The notes under the pieces: generated by a model
Databases searched by the model: none
Seen by the model: only the letters and a program-made list of their open reading frames with translations
Told to the model about the DNA's origin: nothing
Assembly: GCA_937889515.1 (NCBI GenBank)
Contig: CALAOV010000320.1
Coordinates: 1 to 41,934 of the forward strand
Source: an uncultured Myxococcales bacterium
GTDB lineage: Bacteria > Myxococcota_A > Polyangia > Fen-1088
Reading direction: 5' to 3'
DNA: 41,934 nt
Shown here: in pieces, positions 2,652 through 15,949 of the stretch
Numbering within the stretch: position 1 is the first letter of the stretch
Layout: each line of letters begins with the position of its first letter
Translations under genes and position numbers: made by a program

Positions 2652-4061
2652 TCACGACCCGCCTTTGAAAATAAAAGGATAGCGACCGACGATCGTCTGT
2701 CCGGGCGCCTTCGGGAACTGCCACTGCTTGACCTGACGGACGATGCAGCCCTCGACGGCGGCGTCGCTCATGGTGCTCTGCTTGACGTTGGCCTTGCTGA
2801 CCGTTCCGTCGGGCTGAATCACCCAGAAGATGTCGACGCCGCCCGAGAGTGACGTCTTGTGCTGGAGCTCCTTTTCGTAGCAGTACTTGACGCCCGCCAG
2901 GTGCGCCCGCACCACCTTGTTGATCTGCTCCTTGGAGAGCGAGCCGTCGCTGTCGCCCGCCCCGGTGCCGAGGCCGACCGACACCTCGTGCTCGCCGCGC
3001 TCGGCCAGCTTGGGGCCGCGGCCGTGGCCGTGGTTGCCCCGGCCCCCGGTGTCGAGGTTGCCCGACCCGTAGATGTGTCCGTAGCCGGCGCCGCCGCCGC
3101 CGGGGCCGGCTCCGGCGCTCGACAGGCCGCCCGAGCCGCGGCCGGCCACCAGCTTGGCGCCCGCCATGCCGGCCATCGCCTGCTCGACGTCGTTGCTCTG
3201 CGCGAACAGCTTGGAGAGGCCCGACCCCGGCGCCTTGTCCCGGCCGATGATGCTGAGGATCCCCACCCGCTGCACCTTCTCGCGCAGGATGTCTTCCTTG
3301 CCCTTCGGGATCACGGTGTCCTTCTGGGTGGCGTCGGTGCGACCGAGCTTGCCGGCCTTGTCCTTGGCCCGCTTGGTCTGCCCCTCCTTCTCGTCCGACT
3401 TTTCTTCCGCCTTCTCCCGCTTGATGACCTCCTTCTTCTCGAATTCGAGCGCGGCGGGCGCCTCGATCTTCGCGACGCGGTCCGGGTTGAGCGCCAGCGG
3501 CGGCTTGGGCTCCTCCTTCTCCCACATGAAGTTCAAGATGATCGCGAGGGCGCCCATCACGATGCTGGTGCCCACGGTGATCTGCGCCATGTGCGGGTCG
3601 CGGAAGTGGGGTCGCGGAATGACCTCGGGCGGATCGACCCAGCGAATCTCGACCCGCAGATCGCTGCCGTCGGCGAAGATCAGCTTGGCCTTGTCGCCCC
3701 GCGCGAGGTCGACGTCGCGGGAGGCCACGTCGGCGACCGGTGTGGCGACGCCGCCGATGTTGAGGTCGCCCTTCAGGGTCGACGCGAGGTGCAGGACGTA
3801 GCCGTCGCGGCGCGGCTGCAGGAGCAGGAACTTGCTACGCCCCTCGAGCGCGGGCGTCACGAAGGTCGCCCGCTTGGATGGCCCGACGGTGATCTTCCGT
3901 CGTCTCGAGAGCAGGCGGTACGCGATGATCTGGCCACGCCAGATCATCGCGACCTGCAACTTTGCGTGGGTGGTCACCGGTCGCGGACCTGTTCTGCGCC
4001 GCGCCGGATTGTGACCCGGAAGGGGGGGAGGGAGTGCCTGAGAAAGTGGGCTGGTTGCCAA
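2652..4061 (-). CDS. AgmX/PglI C-terminal (TonB-like) domain protein, GltG/NfsG-like: degenerate FHA-like N-terminus, one TM helix, periplasmic charged linker, C-terminal domain
   Basis: FHA-like ITVGPSKRATFVTP...; TM ITVGTSIVMGALAIILNFMW; Lys/Glu linker; C-term INKVVRAHLAGVKYCYEKELQ...VEGCIVRQVKQWQFPKAPGQTIVGRYPFIF. The true start may be a later ATG (MIWRGQ...). Confidence 0.82.
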   Translation of the reverse strand: MATSPLSQALPPPLPGHNPARRRTGPRPVTTHAKLQVAMIWRGQIIAYRLLSRRRKITVGPSKRATFVTPALEGRSKFLLLQPRRDGYVLHLASTLKGDLNIGGVATPVADVASRDVDLARGDKAKLIFADGSDLRVEIRWVDPPEVIPRPHFRDPHMAQITVGTSIVMGALAIILNFMWEKEEPKPPLALNPDRVAKIEAPAALEFEKKEVIKREKAEEKSDEKEGQTKRAKDKAGKLGRTDATQKDTVIPKGKEDILREKVQRVGILSIIGRDKAPGSGLSKLFAQSNDVEQAMAGMAGAKLVAGRGSGGLSSAGAGPGGGGAGYGHIYGSGNLDTGGRGNHGHGRGPKLAERGEHEVSVGLGTGAGDSDGSLSKEQINKVVRAHLAGVKYCYEKELQHKTSLSGGVDIFWVIQPDGTVSKANVKQSTMSDAAVEGCIVRQVKQWQFPKAPGQTIVGRYPFIFKGGS

Positions 4062-4083
4062 GAGTTCACCCTATTTGTCTGCC

Positions 4084-4527
4084 TCAGAGGCTCTTGTCAT
4101 CGGCGCTTTGCCCCAGCTCCTTCATGAAAGAGCGCTTGTCGGGGGCGGACATGTCCAGCTCGAGCTTGACCCTGTTCAAAAAGTATAAGAGTTGCGGGGT
4201 CTTGAGCTTACCTTCCACGTCCATCGCGCCGAAGGTATAAGTCTTGGTTTTCACCTTCCCGCCGGCGGCGGACCCCTTGGCTTCGGCGGCGGGTCGCTCT
4301 TCGGCGACCGAAGCCCCGTCGCCGGCGCTGTCGCTAGCCCCCTCCCCCGAGCTGTCCCCGCTGGAGGCCGCGCTTCGCTCCTGGGTCTGCGTGTGGGCGG
4401 GGGCCGGCTTGCGCGCCGCCGGGTGGCGCTTGGCCGGCTTGGCGGCGGCCGAGCCGGCGACCGCCGATAGCGCGAACGCGGCGAAGATCGCGGGCACGAG
4501 CCGCCAGCGGGCGGCGCCGCCCGTCAT
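4084..4527 (-). CDS. Small exported protein, GltF/NfsF-like by position and size
   Basis: Signal peptide, low-complexity Ala/Ser linker, short conserved-looking C-terminus (KTYTFGAMDVEGKLKTPQLLYFLNRVKLEL); ATGA overlap with the upstream gene. Confidence 0.62.
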   Translation of the reverse strand: MTGGAARWRLVPAIFAAFALSAVAGSAAAKPAKRHPAARKPAPAHTQTQERSAASSGDSSGEGASDSAGDGASVAEERPAAEAKGSAAGGKVKTKTYTFGAMDVEGKLKTPQLLYFLNRVKLELDMSAPDKRSFMKELGQSADDKSL

Positions 4528-5660
4528 TTCATCTCCTTGAGCCGCGACTGCGCGTCGGCGCGCCGGGGATCGTCCTTGCCGACCGCCTGCAGGTATTGAT
4601 TGAGGAAGTCCTTGGCTTTGGCCGGATCCTTGTCGAAGTCCATGTACAGGACGCCCAGGTCGTAGAGCGCCGGCGGGTAGTCCGGCTCGATGTCGAGCGC
4701 GCGTTCGTAAGCCTTGCGGGCCAGATCGGTCTTGCCGTCGCCGCGCGCCGCGACACCCAGCGCCACCTGGGCCTCGGCATCGGCGGGGTCGATCTCGACC
4801 GCCTTTTCGAGCTCGATGCGGGCCTTCTTGTAGTCGCCGCAGTCCAGGTAGACGACCGCCTTGTTGAGGCGGGCCTGCGCGTACTTTGGATCGAGCTCCG
4901 ACGCTTTCTGATAGTCCAAGAAAGCCTCCTGGTCGTGGCCCCGCTCAAAAGCAACGAGACCCAGGTTGTTCCAGACGAAAGCGCTCTTGGGGTCGAGATC
5001 GGCCGCCTTGTGCAGCGCGGTCTCGGCAAGTTCGAACTTCCCCATTTTATAATAGGTTAGGGCCAGGGCGTTATAGGCAATTACGGTGTGGGCGACGTTT
5101 TCGCCCCCCTCCGCAAGCAGCAAACGGGCCTGCTCCAGCGACTCGTCCAGGGAGTCGGGACCCGCCTCGCGGAGCACTTGGCTGTACCGGGCACGCATGT
5201 CGAAGTCGTTGGGGTCGGCGTTGAGCCAGCGGGCGTAGACCTCACCCGCCTTCTTGCCGCTGTGGGCCCGGCGCAGGCTCTCGCCATAGGCCAGCACCGT
5301 CAGGCGCGCGCCGGGCTGGATGTCGAGCGCGCGCTTGAAGTCGTCCACCGCGGCGTCGAAGTTTCCGAGCGCGGTCTCGACCACCCCCAGGTCGTGCCAG
5401 GCCTCGAAGAGGCGGCCATCGAGCTGGGTGGCGCGGGCCAGCGGCTGGCGCGCTTCCTTGTAGTGCTTGCGCCCCGTACGCATGATTCGGACTCCTTCGT
5501 CGAAGGCCGCCTGCGCTTCCGGGCTGGTCTTGGGCAACGCCACCGGCGCGATCGGGTTCACCGCCGCGCTGCCGGGCGCGGGCGCCTTGTGCGCGCAGGC
5601 GCCCACCTGCGCGAGCGCGGCGGCCAGCACGGCCGCTTGGAAGCGGGCGCTACTGGTCAC
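4524..5660 (-). CDS. TPR-repeat lipoprotein, GltE/NfsE-like
   Basis: Lipobox LAQVGAC; successive TPR motifs (AWHDLGVVETALGNFDAAVDDFKRALDIQP; VWNNLGLVAFERGHDQEAFLDYQKASELDP; ALYDLGVLYMDF...). Confidence 0.85.
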   Translation of the reverse strand: MTSSARFQAAVLAAALAQVGACAHKAPAPGSAAVNPIAPVALPKTSPEAQAAFDEGVRIMRTGRKHYKEARQPLARATQLDGRLFEAWHDLGVVETALGNFDAAVDDFKRALDIQPGARLTVLAYGESLRRAHSGKKAGEVYARWLNADPNDFDMRARYSQVLREAGPDSLDESLEQARLLLAEGGENVAHTVIAYNALALTYYKMGKFELAETALHKAADLDPKSAFVWNNLGLVAFERGHDQEAFLDYQKASELDPKYAQARLNKAVVYLDCGDYKKARIELEKAVEIDPADAEAQVALGVAARGDGKTDLARKAYERALDIEPDYPPALYDLGVLYMDFDKDPAKAKDFLNQYLQAVGKDDPRRADAQSRLKEMK

Positions 5661-8600
5661 GGCGGACCTCCTCGATGCGATCGAGGGCGACCTTGGGCTC
5701 GCCGGGGCGGCTGGTCAGACGCAGCTCGGCTTCCTTGGGGTATTCGTTCTCCGCCAGGCGGGAGAGCGCCTGCCGGATGGCCTGGGTGTGCTTGTTGTAG
5801 ACGCCGATCTGGAGCGCGCGCGCGTAGCCCGACTTGTAGGCGTCGATCGCCTTGTCTTCGATGACGACGATGACCTTCTCCAGCTCGTCGCGGTACATCT
5901 GCTTTTCGTCTTCCTTGAGATCCTTCGGCACGGGCGCGCTACGCATGGCCTTGGCGTAGGCCTCGTAGCCCTGTCCGATACGCAAGAGCGCGGCGGTGGC
6001 CCACTCGGGCGACCGGTAGGTGACCACGTCCAGGTAGGTCTGCTTCGCCTCCTCGAGGCGCTTGGCTTTCTCTTCGAGGACCTTGGCGAGCTGCTTCGGC
6101 TTGCCGGCGATCTTGATGCGCTCGTAGTCGAGGTAGAGCAGCTCGCCCTGGATGTACCGAGCCTCGGCGGCGTAGTACCCGCCCTCCTCGCCGCCGCCCT
6201 TGCCGTGCTTGCCGTAGGCCGCCAGCGCCTTGCCGGCGGTCTCCTTGGCGGCGGTTTCGTTCCCCGCCTTGAGCTGCGCGTCGGCCTCACGGGCCAGCGC
6301 CTCGACCGTCTTGGAGTCGCCCGGGTAGGCCTTGCCGTAGGCGGCGAAGCTGGCCGCGGCGCCGCGCCAATCTTTCTGGTCCTCGCGCACGACGGCGGCC
6401 TGGAACGCCACGTCCTTCGCGTCGGGGCGGTCCTTGTAGCGCCTGGCGTATTCGCCGTAGTGCTTGATGGCCCGATCGTGCTGGCCGAGGCTCTGCCGGA
6501 GGACGCCGGCGCTGCGGAGCGCGTCGGCCGCGTGCGCGTTCTGCGGATACTTCTGCGCCAGCTGCTCGTAGAGCACCGCGGCCTTGTCGTAGTAGGCGAT
6601 GTTCTCTTCGATGCGCGCCGCGGTGAAGAGCGCCTCGGGCGCCTCGCTGGCGGTGGGGTATTTGTCCGCCAGCTCGCGGTAGGCGCCCACCGCCTCGTCG
6701 GGCTTCTTCTCTTTTTCGTACACGGCGCCCGCGTTGTTGAGCGCCTTGGGCGCCAGGCCGTTCTGCGGATATTCGTGCGACACGCGCAGGAAAAAGGCGG
6801 CCGCCTTGTCGTAGTCGCCGCTCTGCGCGTACTTCTCGCCGGACTTCATGACGGCGCCCACGATCAGCTTGTCGAGACGGTCCTGCTCGTCCTTGGACGC
6901 GAAGGCCTTGGTCTTCTTGAGCCGCCGGGCCCAGCTCTCGATGTTCTCGTAGTCCTTGGCCTTGCCGAGCGCCTGCAGGATCCGATCGCCGGCCGCGCCC
7001 GCGTTGGGATCGTCCGGATAGCGCTCGACGATCAGGCCGAAGCGTTTGATCGCCTCGTCGTAGTCGCCGTAGTCGAAGAAGAACTGGCCGTTCTTGTAGA
7101 TGACGGTGACGATCTCCTTGTCCTTCGGGAAGAGCGTCGCGTAGAGATCGGCCGCCTCGCCGAACAGCCGGTCGCTGTCGGTGATCTCGCGCTTGCCGCC
7201 GCCGGAGCCGTTGCTCGTGATCGGCTTGCGCACTTTTTCGAAGGAGCCCATCGCCTGCAGGAGCGCGTCCTTGTGGTACTTGCCGACCGGCTGGGTCTTG
7301 CCGACGGCCAGGTACTCGCGCCCCGCGTCCTCGTACTTGCCCAGCTTGAAGTAGAGGATGTCGGCGCGCAGGTAGCGCAGCTCGGCGGCGTCGGGCGCGT
7401 CGGGGAAGTTGGCCAGGTAGAACTGGTAAGCCTCGGCGGCGCGGGCGTAGCGATCTCTATCGACCACCTTGCTCGTCTTCTCGGTTTGCTGCGCCTCCGC
7501 GTGCATGGTCTTGGCCACCGTGCGGATGAGATCCTCGGCCATCGTGCGGGCGTGCTCGACGGTCTTGGGGCGATCTTTGTTGGCGGCGGCCCAGGCGCTG
7601 CGGCCGCCGTAGGTGCTGGCCAGCTTGCGCATCTCGGCGATCGCGGTCTTGATGTCGCCCATGAGCTGGTAGCCCTCGACGATCTTGCCGGCGTAGTCGG
7701 GCGCGTCGGAGCTGTTGGGGTCGAGCTCGATGAGGAGGCGGTAGGCCTCGACGGCGCGTTCATAGCGGGTCTGATCGAACACCGTGTCGGCCAGCTGCTT
7801 GAGCACCTTGCGCGAATATTGCTTGCCGCCGATCTGCGCCAGGAACTCGAAGGCGTCGTGGGCGCTCTTGGTGTCGTCTTCGGTAAAAAGCTCGACCAGG
7901 TAGTCGAGCGCCTGCCCCTGGAGCTCCTCGGCGCGCTTCTGCTGATCTTCGGTCCGGCCGGCCTTTTTCTTGGCCAGATCGAGGACGTCCTTGAACCGCT
8001 GCGCCGATTTGTTGGTGTCGCCCAGCTTCCAGTAGCACCAGGCGGTCTTGAACAGCGCCAGATCGTAGAGGGTCGACTTCGGGTGCTGGAGGACCTTCTC
8101 GTAGGCCTCGAGCGAGCTCTTGTAGTTCTGCTGCTCGTAGAAGCGGTATTCGGCGATGGCCATCCAGGCGTCGGCGATATACCGGGAGTGAGGGAAGCGC
8201 TCGAGGATGATCTGGAAGTACTTGATCGACTCGCCGATCTTTCCCTGGTCGCGCAGCGAGAACGAATAGAGGTAGATGACGGTGTCGATCTTGCGGAACT
8301 TGGGGTACTGGTCGATGAGCCGCAGGTAGACCGCCTGCGCCTGCGCCAGGTCGACGGTGGGTGGGCGGCGCGGCACCTTGGGGCACTCGGCGCGATCGCT
8401 GTGGCAGGCCGAGACGGCCGCCTGATAACGCCCCATTTTCTCGAGGTAGACCGCCTTCGACTCTTCCCAGTAGAGCTCCGCCAGCTTGTACATCGCCTCG
8501 GCCTGCTCTTTGGAGTGCGGGCTGTCGTGCAGGTAGCTCTCGATCAGCTTGATCGCCTCGCGCCTGGCGGCGGTGACCTCGGCTTCCTTTTCGAGTAGCG

Positions 8601-8832
8601 CCTGGCGCAACACGGGCGGCAGCTTGCTCTCGGGCTCGTCGGCGTCCGCGTCGTCCTGATCCGCGTCGTCCTGGTTGGCCTTGCCCGCCGATCGGGCGCC
8701 GGACTTCGCGGCGCGGGCCGCCGGTGTCAGCGCCAGCGCCAGCGTACCCGTGATCGCCAGGAAGGCGACCGCGCTCCGCACGGTGCGCAGAGGTCTATTT
8801 GAAATTCTCGTACTCATCGGACCAGTACTCAC
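5650..8832 (-). CDS. Giant periplasmic TPR protein, GltD/NfsD-like
   Basis: Signal peptide (FLAITGTLALALTPAARA), many TPR units along 1060 aa. Confidence 0.83.
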   Translation of the reverse strand: MSTGPMSTRISNRPLRTVRSAVAFLAITGTLALALTPAARAAKSGARSAGKANQDDADQDDADADEPESKLPPVLRQALLEKEAEVTAARREAIKLIESYLHDSPHSKEQAEAMYKLAELYWEESKAVYLEKMGRYQAAVSACHSDRAECPKVPRRPPTVDLAQAQAVYLRLIDQYPKFRKIDTVIYLYSFSLRDQGKIGESIKYFQIILERFPHSRYIADAWMAIAEYRFYEQQNYKSSLEAYEKVLQHPKSTLYDLALFKTAWCYWKLGDTNKSAQRFKDVLDLAKKKAGRTEDQQKRAEELQGQALDYLVELFTEDDTKSAHDAFEFLAQIGGKQYSRKVLKQLADTVFDQTRYERAVEAYRLLIELDPNSSDAPDYAGKIVEGYQLMGDIKTAIAEMRKLASTYGGRSAWAAANKDRPKTVEHARTMAEDLIRTVAKTMHAEAQQTEKTSKVVDRDRYARAAEAYQFYLANFPDAPDAAELRYLRADILYFKLGKYEDAGREYLAVGKTQPVGKYHKDALLQAMGSFEKVRKPITSNGSGGGKREITDSDRLFGEAADLYATLFPKDKEIVTVIYKNGQFFFDYGDYDEAIKRFGLIVERYPDDPNAGAAGDRILQALGKAKDYENIESWARRLKKTKAFASKDEQDRLDKLIVGAVMKSGEKYAQSGDYDKAAAFFLRVSHEYPQNGLAPKALNNAGAVYEKEKKPDEAVGAYRELADKYPTASEAPEALFTAARIEENIAYYDKAAVLYEQLAQKYPQNAHAADALRSAGVLRQSLGQHDRAIKHYGEYARRYKDRPDAKDVAFQAAVVREDQKDWRGAAASFAAYGKAYPGDSKTVEALAREADAQLKAGNETAAKETAGKALAAYGKHGKGGGEEGGYYAAEARYIQGELLYLDYERIKIAGKPKQLAKVLEEKAKRLEEAKQTYLDVVTYRSPEWATAALLRIGQGYEAYAKAMRSAPVPKDLKEDEKQMYRDELEKVIVVIEDKAIDAYKSGYARALQIGVYNKHTQAIRQALSRLAENEYPKEAELRLTSRPGEPKVALDRIEEVRRDQ

Positions 8833-10681
8833 CTTCGAAGGGCCAGTACTCTTCGTCGTCGCCCATGAGGCCTTCGAGCTGGAGCGTGGCGAACATCTCG
8901 GCGGGGTACCGCCCGGCCCGCAGATTCTCGATCTCGATCTCGAGCTTCTTCTTCTTGCCGATGACCGCGTCGATGTGGGTCAGACGCGCCTCCCGGAGCA
9001 GCTCGCGCAGGCGCTTGTCGAGATCGGCCAGGGCGGTGGTGGCGATCACCCCGGTCGCGGCCACCAGGCCGGCGCGCAGCTTGCGCGCCTCCGCCCCCAG
9101 CGCCAGCGTGGACGCCGCCTCGTGGGCGAAGGGCCCCTGAGCGACGTTCTTGAGCCGCGCCGCCCGGTGGGCCTCGTCGGCCAGCTGGCCGACCCGCTCC
9201 TCCATCTCGGGATCGCCGGCCGCCAGGGGGCGCAGCGCCTCGACGTCCTGGACCAGGCGCACCGCCTCCGTCGCGTCGGCGTTGTCGGTTGCGCCCTTTT
9301 CGTGCGCGGTCAGCTCGTCCCAGACCGCCACCTCGTTGGGGATCATGCCGGTCTCGCGGTCGAGCGACAGGATGTCGCCATAGAACTTGTAGAAGCGCGG
9401 ATCGACCTTGAGCAGCTCGGCGATCGGATCGTGCGGCGTCGCGATGGAGGCCTTGCTGAGCAGGCGCCGGTAGAGCGCGCCGCGCTTGGCCGGATCCTTG
9501 AGCAGCGTCGCCACCTGGGCCTCGATCGGGCCGTAGGTCTTCACGAAGGCGTCCAGCGTCGCGCGCACCTGATCGAACCGGCAGGACTTGAGGTCGATCA
9601 TGGCGTGCAGCAACATCACGTCGGGCGCCAGCGGCGATTTGGGGAAGGTGTGGTCGAACTCCTCGAGAAAGGCGCTGGCCGCCTCGTACTCCCCCTTCTG
9701 GAACATCGACCAGGAGGCCTCGAACAGAGCGTCGGGGAGGCGATCGGAATCGGTGGGAACGCGGAAGTAGAAATAGTAGGCGTCGTCGTACTTCCCCTGC
9801 TCGTGCGCGATCCGGCCCAGCGCCAGGTAGGCCAGGTCCTTGACCGCGAAGTACCGCCCGTCGATGAAGAAGGTGAACCGGTCCTGATCGGCCTGCTCGA
9901 CGATCTCGCACAGCGCGTGGCGAGCGGCGGCGAAGTGTCCGTGGCGGGCGTGGAGCAGGCCGCGGAAGTAGAGCGCGGCGGCGTAGAAGCGGGACTGGCG
10001 GTCGACCTCGGAGAACAGCGATTCGGCGCGCGCGCCGTCGCCGGCCCCGTAGGCGACCTTGCCGGCCAGATAGGCATGCTCGGCGGCGCTGTCGTGGGGC
10101 AGGACCTCGCCGCGGCCGGCGTCCGTGTGATCGAGGACGGAGAGGATCTCCGCCTCTTCCTTGGTCTCGAGCGCGACGTCGACCATCATCCGGTAGGCCG
10201 GCGCGAAGAGGGGGGATTTGGTCTCGCGGCCCATCACCCGCAGCAGATAGCGCTCCGCCGACTTGTAGCCCCCCGCGCGGATGAGGGCGCGCGCCAGCGT
10301 CAGCTCGGCGGTGGCGTAGTCGGGCGCGTATTCGAACTGCGCGAAGCGCGGCGATTCGACGATGCGATAAAGGCGCACGCTCGCGATCTCGGCGTTGCCG
10401 GTGACGAGATCGTCCTCGGCCGCGGCCAGCTCGGTGCGCAGCCGGTCCAGCGTGGCCGGCTGTTTGTCCCCGCCGAGCACGCCGGCCTTCTCCAGATCGG
10501 CCAGGTATCGCCCCATGGGATCGATTGAGGTCGGGGACCCTGGGAGGGTCCCCGCGCCCCCCCGCGATGGAATCTGGCGGGCGGAGCCCGCCTCCGTCCA
10601 CGCGTTGCCGCTCGGCGCCGCCTTGGGCGCGGCATCGGCGTCCACGTGCTGGACGAGCAGGGCGACGAGGAGCGCGATCAT
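8795..10681 (-). CDS. Exported TPR protein, GltC/NfsC-like, with an in-frame palindromic element after the signal peptide
   Basis: Signal peptide [20 protein letters not shown]-like repeats; residues [27 protein letters not shown] are encoded by a repeat also found intergenically at 14967-15046. Confidence 0.8.
10523..10604. repeat. Palindromic interspersed element, copy A (inside CDS 8795-10681)
   Basis: GATTGAGGTCGGGGACCCTGGGAGGGTCCCCGCGCCCCCCCGCGATGG...GGCGGGCGGAGCCCGCC...CCACGCG; two hairpins. Confidence 0.88.
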
Positions 10682-11391
10682 TTCTCCGACCGGACCTCGA
10701 TCTCGACCTCGGGCTCGTACCCGGGCAGGTCGCCGTCGTCGTCGCCGGTGATGACCACGTTCGTTCGCTGGCCGTCGGGAACGTCGATGACGAAGGTCTG
10801 CTCGGATTCGTAGCCCAGATCGGCGTGTTCCTTTTCACTCTTCTTGCCGGGGCGGACTTCGATCCGCACGGTCAGCGTGTGCGGGCCGGGCTTGGCCGGG
10901 CGCTCGGAGACCTTGATGAGCTCGTCGACCAGCGGCTTTTCGCCCGAGTCCCAGATGGAGTTGCCGTCGAGGCGGATCTCCGCGCGGCGCAGGATGAAGT
11001 CCGGCGCTCCCTTCCAGCGCAGCGTCGCCGCCAGCTTCGATTCGTAGATTCCCTCCTCGACCAGCTCGGCGCGGGCGCGCGAGCGGAACAGCTCGTCGCG
11101 CAGCCGATCGTATTCGGAGCGCAGCTTGGCCAGGTCGACGGCGGGCGGCGGCGCGGGCGGCGCCATCTGCTGCTCGACCGACTCGTTGCCTGCGCCCGAG
11201 GGCGCCGGGGAGGATTTCGACCCGGCCGTTCGCCCGGCGTCGGGCGTCGATTCGGCCGCGGGATCGTTCTTGGCCGCGCGGGCCGGCCCGGCCGCCAGCG
11301 CGAGCCCGGCCAGCGTCAGCGACAGAACCAGGCGCCCCGCGCGGTATCGGGGCTGGCAGGCGATGTTTCCTGGGATCTTCATTTTGATCAC
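10678..11391 (-). CDS. Exported protein of unknown function in the Glt/Nfs-like operon
   Basis: Signal peptide (LVLSLTLAGLALAAGPARA), predicted helical segment then beta-rich domain; 4-nt overlaps on both sides. Confidence 0.7.
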   Translation of the reverse strand: MIKMKIPGNIACQPRYRAGRLVLSLTLAGLALAAGPARAAKNDPAAESTPDAGRTAGSKSSPAPSGAGNESVEQQMAPPAPPPAVDLAKLRSEYDRLRDELFRSRARAELVEEGIYESKLAATLRWKGAPDFILRRAEIRLDGNSIWDSGEKPLVDELIKVSERPAKPGPHTLTVRIEVRPGKKSEKEHADLGYESEQTFVIDVPDGQRTNVVITGDDDGDLPGYEPEVEIEVRSEK

Positions 11392-12182
11392 TCCCGTATC
11401 GGCAGGTAGAGGCTGAGACCGATGGTGGTGGTGAGATCGTTGACCAGCAGCGTCTGCGCCAGCAGCTGCTGCCGGTAGATGTGGTCGCGCACGTCGATGC
11501 GGATGGCCCAGGCGTGGCCCAGGAAGAACTTGAAGCCGAAGCCGCCGCTGCCGGCGAGATCCTCGGACACCACCGAATCGACCACGCCGGCGCCGCCCGC
11601 CAGGTAGAAATCGAAATGGGTGATCGATCCGCCGAGCCGCATCTTGGCGTGCGCGGGCAACCAGATCAGATCGGCGTCGAAGTAGAGCTCGCGGCGCGGT
11701 CGTCCTTGCAGGACCGCGAACGTCCGCTCGAGCTCTGGTCCCCCGTACGACGTCAGGCTGGTGATCGCCGCCGAGGCCTCGACGCCGAGGTCTTCGGTCA
11801 TGTGATAGGTGTAGGCGAGGCCCAGCGTCCCCGGCGTGGGCGTCGAGCGGAGCCCGGGAACGCGGCCGAGGTAGGGAATGTCGCCCAGGTGGCCGGAATA
11901 GACCCCGTCGAAGAGGTCGGAAGAGTAATAGCCGCCCTGGATGGTCAGCTCGTGGCGGTTGGTCTGCTGAAACAGGCGGTCGCGGCTGGTCCGCTGCTTT
12001 CGCTTGGCGAACAGATCCGCCTTGATATCTTCGTCGATGCAGGCGTCGCCGCCCTTGCCGTCGGAGGTGCTGGTAGCCGCGGTGGCGTCCTCGTCCGACG
12101 TCGCGTCGTCGTCCGCCAGCGTGGGCCTAGCCGTTGCCAGCAGCAGCGCCAGCGACGAAAGGGCGATGGTCAGCCGAGCCAT
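11388..12182 (-). CDS. Outer-membrane beta-barrel protein, GltB/NfsB-like
   Basis: Signal peptide; barrel-like strands; final GLSLYLPI; paralogous to the next ORF (shared RHELTIQGGYYSSD / RFELSGLGGFYAAD pattern). Confidence 0.75.
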   Translation of the reverse strand: MARLTIALSSLALLLATARPTLADDDATSDEDATAATSTSDGKGGDACIDEDIKADLFAKRKQRTSRDRLFQQTNRHELTIQGGYYSSDLFDGVYSGHLGDIPYLGRVPGLRSTPTPGTLGLAYTYHMTEDLGVEASAAITSLTSYGGPELERTFAVLQGRPRRELYFDADLIWLPAHAKMRLGGSITHFDFYLAGGAGVVDSVVSEDLAGSGGFGFKFFLGHAWAIRIDVRDHIYRQQLLAQTLLVNDLTTTIGLSLYLPIRE

Positions 12183-13045
12183 AGGCTGAACCCCGCCAGG
12201 ACGTTGATGTTGTTGGTGATGCGCCCGCGGCTCAGCACCTCCTGCGGCAGCAGGAAGTCGCGGAGGTCCAGCCGGAACGAGAAGAAGCGGTTGAAGTAGA
12301 GCTTGAGCCCACCGCCGACCTCCCAGGTCAGGCCGAGGACGCTCGGGTCGAAGGTGCGGCCGGCCCCGGCGACCGCGAAGATGTCGCTGTGAAGGATCCG
12401 CGTCTCGCTGAACTTGAACTTCGCATGGATGGGCGACCAGAGCAGCGAGAGCATCCCCTGCCAGGCGATGCCGGGCTGGAAGTGGGTCTGCTGATCGAAA
12501 GAGGTAAACGCTTCCTCCAGGCGAAACCGCATCGGCGTCCGTGTGACCAGCGCTTCGAGCCCGAAATCCTCCGACGGGTAGAACGACAGCGCGCCGCCGT
12601 AGCTGTAGGTGGACGACAGAGCGTCGGCCGCGTAGAAGCCGCCGAGGCCGGAGAGCTCGAAGCGGTGACGCTTGAGGAAGTCGCGCCGCTGGACCCCCTT
12701 GCGGCGACCGCCCGTCGCATCGCCTTCCAGGCAGGCCAGGCCGTGTAGCGCCGATTCGGGCTCCTCGTCGGTTTCGCCGAGCTCGCTGTCGGCCTCGCCG
12801 GCCTCGCCGCCCGCGCTGCCGTCGGACTGGGACCGGCCGGCGCTCGAGCTGTCTTTTGAGCTGTCCTTGGACCCCTCTTTCGAATCCTCATCGGCGGGCG
12901 TAGCCTCGGAATCGTCGTCGCCGCCGCCCTTGTCCTCGAAAAGGTTGTCGGTCGGCTTCGAGCCCGCCAACGGGGGCGCGGCTAGCGCGGGGATCCCGTT
13001 GGTGAGCCCGTAGGCCAGAGCGAGGACGACCGTCGCACGTACCAA
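12170..13045 (-). CDS. Outer-membrane beta-barrel protein, GltA/NfsA-like
   Basis: Acidic Ser-rich N-terminal region followed by barrel; same KHRFELSGLGGFYAADALSSTYSYGGALSFYPSEDFGLEA pattern as its neighbour; first gene of the minus-strand operon. Confidence 0.75.
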   Translation of the reverse strand: MVRATVVLALAYGLTNGIPALAAPPLAGSKPTDNLFEDKGGGDDDSEATPADEDSKEGSKDSSKDSSSAGRSQSDGSAGGEAGEADSELGETDEEPESALHGLACLEGDATGGRRKGVQRRDFLKRHRFELSGLGGFYAADALSSTYSYGGALSFYPSEDFGLEALVTRTPMRFRLEEAFTSFDQQTHFQPGIAWQGMLSLLWSPIHAKFKFSETRILHSDIFAVAGAGRTFDPSVLGLTWEVGGGLKLYFNRFFSFRLDLRDFLLPQEVLSRGRITNNINVLAGFSLWLG

Positions 13046-13105
13046 CGCCCAAAAATCGTAGTCCTAGCGCAGTGCGCTTGGCAAGGTTCGTCATGCTTCT
13101 TTTTC

Positions 13106-14968
13106 ATGAAAACCTCGTCGAGAAATGACATCTATTCCGGCAGGACGATGTTCCGCGCCGGCTTTATCCACGTTATTCGCACCGCAACGACCGAGAGGCG
13201 GGTGGCGCAACATGGGGGCGACGGTGTGGCGCAACGTGCGAGACGTGATCATTCACCCCACATCGGGTCGATTGGGACCGGGTGGGCGACCGGCTGGCTG
13301 GTCGCGGTGGCCGCGGGTTTGGCCGGTCTGGTCTGTTTCGCCTGTTCGGGATCCAAATCCCCCCCTCCGATCGAGGGGGGGGTCGCGCCACGACAGTGCT
13401 CGGGCAGCGCCCTGTGCGTGGGCGCCACCATCCACATGTGTCAGGGGGACATGATCGGGGACGAGATCGAAGACTGCGCGCCGAGCGGCCAGGTCTGCAG
13501 CCTCGCCCGCTGCACCTCGCCCGATTGTCAGATGGCGGAGGCCAACGCCAGCAGCGTCGTCGGTTGTCTCTTCTACACGCTCGAGGCGGAGACGGTCGGG
13601 GAGGATCAGGCCAATCCCACCAGCTTCCTGGTTTCCAATCCGGGTGGCGATGCCGCCACCGTCGAGATCCAGCGCCCCAGCGTCGGCGCGGACGGCACCA
13701 CGCAATGGATGGGTGGAACCTCCACCCCGGTGCCGAGCGGCCAGTCGGGCCGGCTGGTCCTGCCCGGTGGGGCCGAGGTGACCGGGATCGGGACCCGGAT
13801 CGGCGGAGCCGTCCGTATCTCCAGCGACCGGCCGGTCACCGTCGTCGAGATCGAGGGCGACGACGTCGCCCAGAACGCGACCAGCACGGGGGGCACGATG
13901 ATCCTGCCACTCCAGTCGCTCGGGATCTCCTACCTGTCCGTCACCTATCCGGAGATGGCCACGCCGGCCATCGCAAACATCCCGGGCAGCCGCGGCGGGG
14001 CGGCCCGGGTGATGGTCATCGGCACGCAGCAGGGGACCACGATCCATTTCCTTCCGTTCGGGGCGGTCTCGGCCGCGCCCGGCGACGGCTTCGGCGGACT
14101 CGCCGCGGGCGAGGACTATCCGGTCGTGTTGAACGACGGCGACGTCTTTCAGATCTATAGCGGCGCCGACGGCGAGGATCTGACCGGGAGCCTGGTCACC
14201 GCGGGTCAGCCCATCGCGGTCTTCTCGGGCAACATCTCGACGACCTACGGGTCGCAGGTGACGGGAATCAATTCACCGGATATGGCGCATGAACAGATGC
14301 CGCCCATCGCCACCTGGAGCCAGACCTACGTCGCGGCATCGCTGACGCCGCAATCGAACATCGATTGCACGTCGTTCTTTGGCACCAGCGGGGCGTCGAT
14401 CTGGCGGGTGCTGGCCGCAACCAACGGGACCAGCGTCACCTTCGAGGGGCCCGGGGTAGACACCTTGCAGCTGCTGCCGGCCGGGGGCGTGGCCGCGCCC
14501 CTCGAGCAGCCCCTCGCGCTCGACGCGGGCCAAGCGGCGTCGCTCATCGGCGTCGGTAGCTTCACGGTGGCCGGGACGTATCCGATTCTGGTGACGCAAG
14601 GGATGGATTGCGAGCCGAGCCTGTCGCTGGCGATCGCCGTCGACGCCGGCACGCTGGTCAAGAGTCTGCCGTTCGCGGTGCTTCCGAATTTCGATCAGCT
14701 TCTGGGGATCGTCCGGCCCCAGAGCACGGAGGTGGATCTGGACGGCAGCGCCATCCCCGACGGCGCGTTCCAGTCGGTCGGCGAGATGTTCGAGGTGGCC
14801 GAGGTTCCTCTCGGCGCCTGCCCGCCGAACCAGGGCGTCTGCCCGCACGTCTTGACCGGCGCGGCCGGGTTCGGGATGACCTTGCGCGGAATGGACGTCC
14901 AGTCGAGCTACGCACTGACGGCGCCCGGACTCCGCTGCGACCCGGGTAACGAAGTCTGTCTGAACTGA
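13106..14968 (+). CDS. IgGFc-binding-protein-like lipoprotein
   Basis: Lipobox LAGLVCFAC; domain pattern ISSDRPVTVVEIEGDDVAQNAT...MILPLQSLGISYLSVTYPE...AGQPIAVFSGN...HEQMPPIATWSQTYV. True start uncertain (GTG 13202 or 13226 plausible). Confidence 0.75.
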   Translation: MKTSSRNDIYSGRTMFRAGFIHVIRTATTERRVAQHGGDGVAQRARRDHSPHIGSIGTGWATGWLVAVAAGLAGLVCFACSGSKSPPPIEGGVAPRQCSGSALCVGATIHMCQGDMIGDEIEDCAPSGQVCSLARCTSPDCQMAEANASSVVGCLFYTLEAETVGEDQANPTSFLVSNPGGDAATVEIQRPSVGADGTTQWMGGTSTPVPSGQSGRLVLPGGAEVTGIGTRIGGAVRISSDRPVTVVEIEGDDVAQNATSTGGTMILPLQSLGISYLSVTYPEMATPAIANIPGSRGGAARVMVIGTQQGTTIHFLPFGAVSAAPGDGFGGLAAGEDYPVVLNDGDVFQIYSGADGEDLTGSLVTAGQPIAVFSGNISTTYGSQVTGINSPDMAHEQMPPIATWSQTYVAASLTPQSNIDCTSFFGTSGASIWRVLAATNGTSVTFEGPGVDTLQLLPAGGVAAPLEQPLALDAGQAASLIGVGSFTVAGTYPILVTQGMDCEPSLSLAIAVDAGTLVKSLPFAVLPNFDQLLGIVRPQSTEVDLDGSAIPDGAFQSVGEMFEVAEVPLGACPPNQGVCPHVLTGAAGFGMTLRGMDVQSSYALTAPGLRCDPGNEVCLN

Positions 14969-15046
14969 TTGAGTTCGGGACCCTGGGAGGGTCCCGCGCC
15001 CCCCGCGATGGGGTCGGGCCGGCGGAGCCGTCCCTCCCCCGACGCG
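14967..15046. repeat. Palindromic interspersed element, copy B
   Basis: GATTGAGTTCGGGACCCTGGGAGGGTCCCGCGCCCCCCGCGATGGGGTCGGGCCGGCGGAGCCGTCCCTCCCCCGACGCG; begins at the stop codon of the preceding gene. Confidence 0.88.
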
Positions 15047-15050
15047 ATAT

Positions 15051-15096
15051 AGTTCGGGACCCTGGGAGGGTCCCGCGCCCCCCGCTTCCCCACGCG
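15051..15096. repeat. Palindromic interspersed element, copy C (lacks second hairpin)
   Basis: AGTTCGGGACCCTGGGAGGGTCCCGCGCCCCCCGC-TTCCCCACGCG, in tandem with copy B. Confidence 0.82.
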
Positions 15097-15121
15097 ATCT
15101 AGGGCTTTCGAATAGCGTCGG

Positions 15122-15949
15122 CTAGGCGCCTTTGAGGGCTTCGAGGTCGGCGCGGAGGTTGTCGGGGGTGAAGTTGTCGCGCTTGCGCCGCACGTCGAAG
15201 TAGAGGAGCACCATCCCGAGGACCGGGACCGGGAGCAGCACCATGGTGATGAGATCGCCGAACAGCGAGCTGGCGAAGATCGCCGACTGCGGGACGAGGG
15301 CGCTGGCCACCACCTGCGCGATCCCGCGGAGGAGCCCGAAGACCAACACCACCAAGGTCACCCGCAGCCAGTCGGAGCGAACCAGCGCCACGCTGCGCTC
15401 GAGCGCGGCGCGTCCGCCGATTCCTTCGATCAGCACAACCGGCGAGACGAAGGCGAAGAGAAGGGCCAGGACCAGCCCGGGGATGAGGAAGAAGACGCAC
15501 CCGATCGCTACTAAGAAGGCGGCGGGGATGACGGCCGACAGAAGCTTACCGAGACGGCGGAAGAGGAGCATCCAGACCTCGCGCCATTCGGCGTGGCCGC
15601 CGAGGACGCGATCGGCGACCGAGATGGTGAGCGCCCCGTTGGTCAGCGGCACGATGATCCCGTACAGGAAGAACGCCGTCACCAGTGTCCCCAGCAGGCC
15701 GAACAGGTAGACGCTGAGGCCACCCCCCAGCGCCGCGCTCGGATCGGCCGAAGCCGCCAGCGCCACGGTCGGGCCGAGGATCGCCGACAGCGCCAGCGAT
15801 TTGATGATCGAGGCCGGGACCAGCAGCAGCGCGCAGGTGATGAGCAGCGGCTTGGCGTGCGCGCGATAGAGCTGGAAGGCCTCGCTGAGAAGGTCCGCGA
15901 CCCCTTTTTCTGGCACCGGGGGAACCTGAGGATCGAGCGTTTCGGACAT
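15122..15949 (-). CDS. Polytopic membrane protein (YciC / glycerophosphodiesterase membrane-domain-like)
   Basis: Several hydrophobic helices; ATG at 15949 (MSETLDPQVPPVPEKGVADLLSEAFQLYRAHAKPLLI) preferred; ORF extends to 15982. Confidence 0.72.
   Translation of the reverse strand: MSETLDPQVPPVPEKGVADLLSEAFQLYRAHAKPLLITCALLLVPASIIKSLALSAILGPTVALAASADPSAALGGGLSVYLFGLLGTLVTAFFLYGIIVPLTNGALTISVADRVLGGHAEWREVWMLLFRRLGKLLSAVIPAAFLVAIGCVFFLIPGLVLALLFAFVSPVVLIEGIGGRAALERSVALVRSDWLRVTLVVLVFGLLRGIAQVVASALVPQSAIFASSLFGDLITMVLLPVPVLGMVLLYFDVRRKRDNFTPDNLRADLEALKGA

Follow-up and report, generated by a model that had tools for sequence, protein, structure and literature searches.

In-frame copies of a dispersed palindromic repeat family in protein genes of an uncultured Myxococcota lineage

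The palindromic element found inside the gene of a GltC-like TPR protein (copy A) is very probably a member of a dispersed REP-like family of palindromic DNA in an uncultured Myxococcota lineage, whose copies survive in genes when the reading frame is kept. Sister species differ in whether a given site carries a copy of the family. The window, i.e. the whole stretch of DNA which was analysed, comprises 41,934 nt of contig CALAOV010000320.1, and its genome is called G000 here; G001 and G002 are the other two genomes of the same genus. All genomes used are draft MAGs, of which G000, G001 and G002 are 91–94% complete, G000 being in 402 contigs. The features of the window are collected in Table 1.

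Table 1. Coordinates of the element copies, their hairpins and the host gene in the window
Feature	Position	Strand	Basis and remarks
Copy A, palindromic element	10523..10606	+	alignment break 10523/10607 against the G001 empty site; covariance-model match, E 1.1e-12
Hairpin 1 of copy A	10532..10554	+	DNA fold of the element, z -3.7; family covariation
Hairpin 2 of copy A	10563..10604	+	DNA fold of the element; family covariation
Copy B, intergenic	14971..15047	+	2-3 nt past the TGA stop of gene 13307-14968; absent in G001
Copy C, in tandem with B	15048..15099	+	sequence; absent in G001; hairpin 2 mostly deleted
Host gene, 628-aa TPR protein, GltC-like	8795..10681	-	NCBIfam NF033756, Pfam TPR, orthologues in relatives

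The insertion is read most directly from the alignment with contig C402 of G001, which stops at 10523 and restarts at 10607 on the same G001 base, the empty site being GGGATC/GCCGCTC. Copy A is accordingly 84 bp long (28 codons), with an ambiguity of 1 nt in its boundary. An earlier note on this DNA had described an element of about 82 nt at 10523-10604, translated in frame as 27 residues; the element and the open frame were confirmed, while both sizes had to be corrected. The minus-strand CDS runs open right through copy A, and the G000 protein has 28 aa extra over that of G001 (APSG/DPM). The insert begins about 24 codons into the gene and follows a short hydrophobic N-terminus which is plausibly a signal peptide. 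In the orthologues of G001, G002, G004, G006 and G009 the hydrophobic N-terminal segment is joined directly to a D/E-P motif, and the peptide is missing together with the DNA. The insertion of copy A is thus derived; loss in the relatives instead of gain in G000 was rejected for this copy, as five relatives from three genera are without the insert.

The window contains three occurrences of the hairpin core GGGACCCTGGGAGGGTCCC, at 10534, 14977 and 15056 (mean in shuffles 0.02), and the match of copy A to the intergenic copies B and C, as first reported, was upheld. An alignment of 41 copies was prepared and its consensus structure was derived by RNAalifold, giving 22 pairs in two hairpins. Pairing is kept in 98.0% of the cells of this alignment against 34–56% for slid structures, a comparison which favours the structure as it was derived from the same sequences, and double-changed cells number 74 against 20 in shuffles. 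The family has two GC-rich hairpins whose pairing is maintained through compensatory changes, and such strict pairing suggests that the strand serves in its folded state, whether as substrate or as functional form. The approximate family consensus is TC-GGGACCCTGGGAGGGTCCC-GCGCCCCC-CGCGAYGRG...(RAA)...CYC(G)ACGCG-ATC; the unit is about 80 bp long with ends varying among copies, and the 3′ ATC is conserved at 90, 90 and 78%, the sequence beyond it being random.

A covariance model found at least 105–111 copies in G000, at least 89 in G001, at least 50 in G002 and 0 in G003 (E<=0.01), which bears out the mobile-element reading of the earlier note. At a threshold of E<=1e-4, 16 of the 18 genomes in this bacterial family carry the element, some with at least about 150 copies. 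Spread follows from the presence/absence polymorphism, the tandem arrays and the dispersed identical cores taken together. Copies B and C form such a tandem pair (14971-15099), located between convergent genes, and copy C has lost an arm of hairpin 2. Among other genera, G010, G011 and G012 have at least 134–149 copies each; G003 and G008 have none.

The placement of the copies was analysed in some 1 Mb of G000 sequence surrounding 97 copies, with genes called by a home-made dicodon caller. Out of 70 non-coding copies, 52 lie within 20 nt behind the stop of a gene of the same orientation, where random placement within the same gaps would give 29.0 (z 8), and convergent gaps hold 42 copies, the background share of such gaps being 70/489. 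Coding copies are a minority and the usual site of the family is directly past stop codons. The C-termini of the upstream genes are identical to those of element-free orthologues, so the stop before the copy is native in most cases, and the supply of stop codons by the element was rejected for most copies as the cause of this placement. Six genes (L133, L156, L157, L140, L183 and L189) have their predicted stop at a TGA of the hairpin 1 loop (TGAGA variant), and in these the element may supply the stop with a few C-terminal residues. TAA stops are also commoner in G000 genes preceding a copy (13/56) than generally (87/831).

It is possible, although we consider it doubtful, that the family is chiefly a functional 3′ RNA element, a terminator or mRNA-end hairpin under selection, and that the coding copies arose only as rare accidents while it spread. 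The 52 copies close to native stops in the same orientation and the 42 copies between convergent genes would agree with such a role, as would one convergent gap (L192:2748-2836 and L041) in which two sister species have the element in opposite orientations; this last case suggests that insertions took place there independently more than once, or that a hairpin is selected for at that place. However, no T-run terminator motif is found at copies B and C, the same placement could come from an insertion preference, and the tandem arrays, the absence from sister species and the coding copies resemble spread. This role and the mobile family favoured here are not mutually exclusive.

The search for other coding copies, proposed along with the original observation, showed at least 11 of the 97 copies in frame within long CDSs, where the sequence on either side of the copy scores as coding; this test is biased to open frames, and the in-frame pattern leans on a separate search for broken genes, in which none of the 76 other copies was found to break a gene (two candidates were adjacent genes). 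The host CDSs encode the GltC-like TPR protein, LeuRS, CarA, Mpl, TruD, an M61 peptidase, an MsbA-like ABC transporter, an E2 acyltransferase, an NtrC-type activator, a ParB-like protein (labelled by eye, with no family match) and an HTTM/DCC1 protein. Among them the element is inserted in either orientation and in each of the three phases. Ten of the 11 were compared at the DNA level with orthologues of G001 and G002, and at the clearly resolved sites the length differences are multiples of 3. Clean inserts of 26–28 residues are seen in the GltC-like protein, CarA, M61 and Mpl, the last against G001 only, as the linker of G002 is different and longer there. In LeuRS and the NtrC-type, ParB-like, MsbA-like and TruD proteins the copy replaces a variable loop with a net gain, and in E2 it lies in a poorly aligning linker, the boundaries being uncertain in all six; the HTTM/DCC1 copy is common to G000 and G001. 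In alignments with PDB homologues, the LeuRS copy falls in a gap-rich stretch directly after a motif conserved in the homologue, and the CarA alignment starts directly behind the insert. Further copies lengthen RimP, RlmN and others at one end.

The core is open in 65–96% of copies, per frame, and the inserts are rich in Gly, Pro, Ser and charged residues, with negative GRAVY in 10 of the 11 peptides and about 0 in the remaining one. Open frames together with a hydrophilic, Gly/Pro/Ser-rich peptide would make survival in reading frames easier. Judging from these open frames, the coding copies are presumably translated. Related copies are also in frame in MAG BP4.bin10, another Myxococcales, where the MiaB gene (L279:703-2205) has two in tandem with about 50 extra residues and a ribosomal protein S1-like gene (L276:1840-3126) has one between S1 domains.

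For copy A itself the peptide would not be made if translation of the GltC-like protein began downstream, at the Met in DPMGRY, leaving the copy within the 5′ untranslated region. An ATG is indeed present at the insert end, and in other species REPs lying in genes close to the 5′ end are often non-coding (PMC3733652). Against this, the upstream ATG overlaps the stop of the preceding gene (ATGA) and is kept with the hydrophobic N-terminus in G001, G002, G006, G004 and G009, and mid-gene copies such as those of LeuRS and M61 have no such escape, so a downstream start, which had been named as a way for the proposal to fail, is judged improbable. An artefact of metagenome assembly or binning is hardly credible even for a repeat-rich draft genome in 402 contigs, because the copies are internal to contigs and flanked by syntenic sequence, several sites are common to the independent MAG Chersky.8_6 (G001), and in-frame copies occur in BP4.bin10 also.

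In the mobile-family explanation, the spreading form of the unit would be a structured strand of DNA (or RNA), moved by some factor. Copies landing past stop codons would do no harm, or would serve the mRNA as a 3′ hairpin, and within genes the survivors would be frame-keeping insertions in loops, linkers or protein ends, the in-frame pattern resulting from selection against frame loss. Copy A would give the GltC-like protein 28 residues past its N-terminal hydrophobic segment. The Y1 domain PF01797 (RAYT/TnpA_REP) is absent in G000, G001 and G002 and was found in an E. coli control; this search gave no mobilising enzyme in the three genomes of the genus, and mobilisation by RAYT is unsupported.

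Among known repeats, GTAG and CGTC REPs are located behind stop codons, CGTC REPs are without transposase, and in-frame intragenic copies, RPE-4 and RPE-6 among them, have been described from several species (Di Nocera et al. 2013, PMC3733652). The family resembles REP/BIME and GTAG/CGTC REPs in high copy number, hairpins and location near stop codons and between convergent genes, and some GTAG/CGTC REPs likewise occur within the genes of tRNA synthetases and pseudouridine synthases (PMC3733652). As a many-copy palindromic repeat, mostly extragenic and near gene ends, it is a REP in the broad sense. It differs in that its unit, at about 80 nt, exceeds a single REP in length, no RAYT/Y1 was found in the genus and neither GTAG nor CGTC is conserved at the hairpin foot: one copy out of 77 has GTAG in its leader, and in place of an unpaired CGTC end a 3′ GACGCG is present in 34 of 77, with its CGCG base-paired. 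Membership of the tagged GTAG/CGTC REPs was rejected on these counts. With MITEs such as ERIC the family shares a non-autonomous, dispersed, mostly intergenic nature and possible in-frame fusions, but neither terminal inverted repeats spanning the unit nor target-site duplications were seen at the GltC-like and Mpl sites, the two clean ones, the other sites being blurred by divergence.

The earlier note had named Rickettsia palindromic elements as analogues. The behaviour is similar, with in-frame insertions in unrelated genes that have element-free orthologues, though the analogues are wider and include intragenic REPs of several species (PMC3733652). RPE-1 and RPE-4/RPE-6 (which are CGTC REPs) are also short many-copy palindromes, of which a sizeable share is inserted in frame and lengthens housekeeping proteins by tens of residues. 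In contrast, the present family belongs to another phylum, has a two-hairpin 80-bp unit without a conserved CGTC tag, and has 11 of 97 copies in genes as against nearly half for RPEs (PMC10969869). Its sequence is presumably unrelated to that of RPEs, and Rfam gave no match at E<=1 for 10400-15300. The family is of the broad kind of palindromic repeats with coding copies, outside the tagged superfamilies, and since intragenic in-frame REPs are published for several species, the behaviour itself is already known. Our literature search met no REP or RPE-like family reported for myxobacteria or the phylum, in line with the first reading of this DNA.

It is thus a new and unusually well documented family of a known type. 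It provides a clear example from nature of core enzymes gaining protein segments out of non-coding mobile DNA, the direction being given by the empty sites of sister species, and it lies outside Rickettsia, whose frequency of such insertions was termed unusual in a 2024 review which expected analogues (PMC10969869). The before/after pairs of LeuRS, CarA, Mpl and TruD allow the effect of 26–29 extra residues on an enzyme to be asked, and the mobiliser of this orphan repeat can be sought in a family with copy number from 0 to at least about 150. We would suggest, only tentatively, that an untagged, transposase-orphan family might recognise or be recruited to stop-codon regions while occasional insertions feed in-frame segments into essential enzymes family-wide, which would make it a second independent protein-decorating lineage, outside Rickettsia, with an undescribed mechanism.

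The host protein matches NF033756 gliding_GltC at E 3.6e-38, yet under the curated equivalog cut-off. The region 2652-13045 of the window appears to hold a cluster resembling the myxobacterial Glt gliding machinery, with predicted GltC-, GltE- and GltG-like proteins and two OMP_myx_plus barrels.
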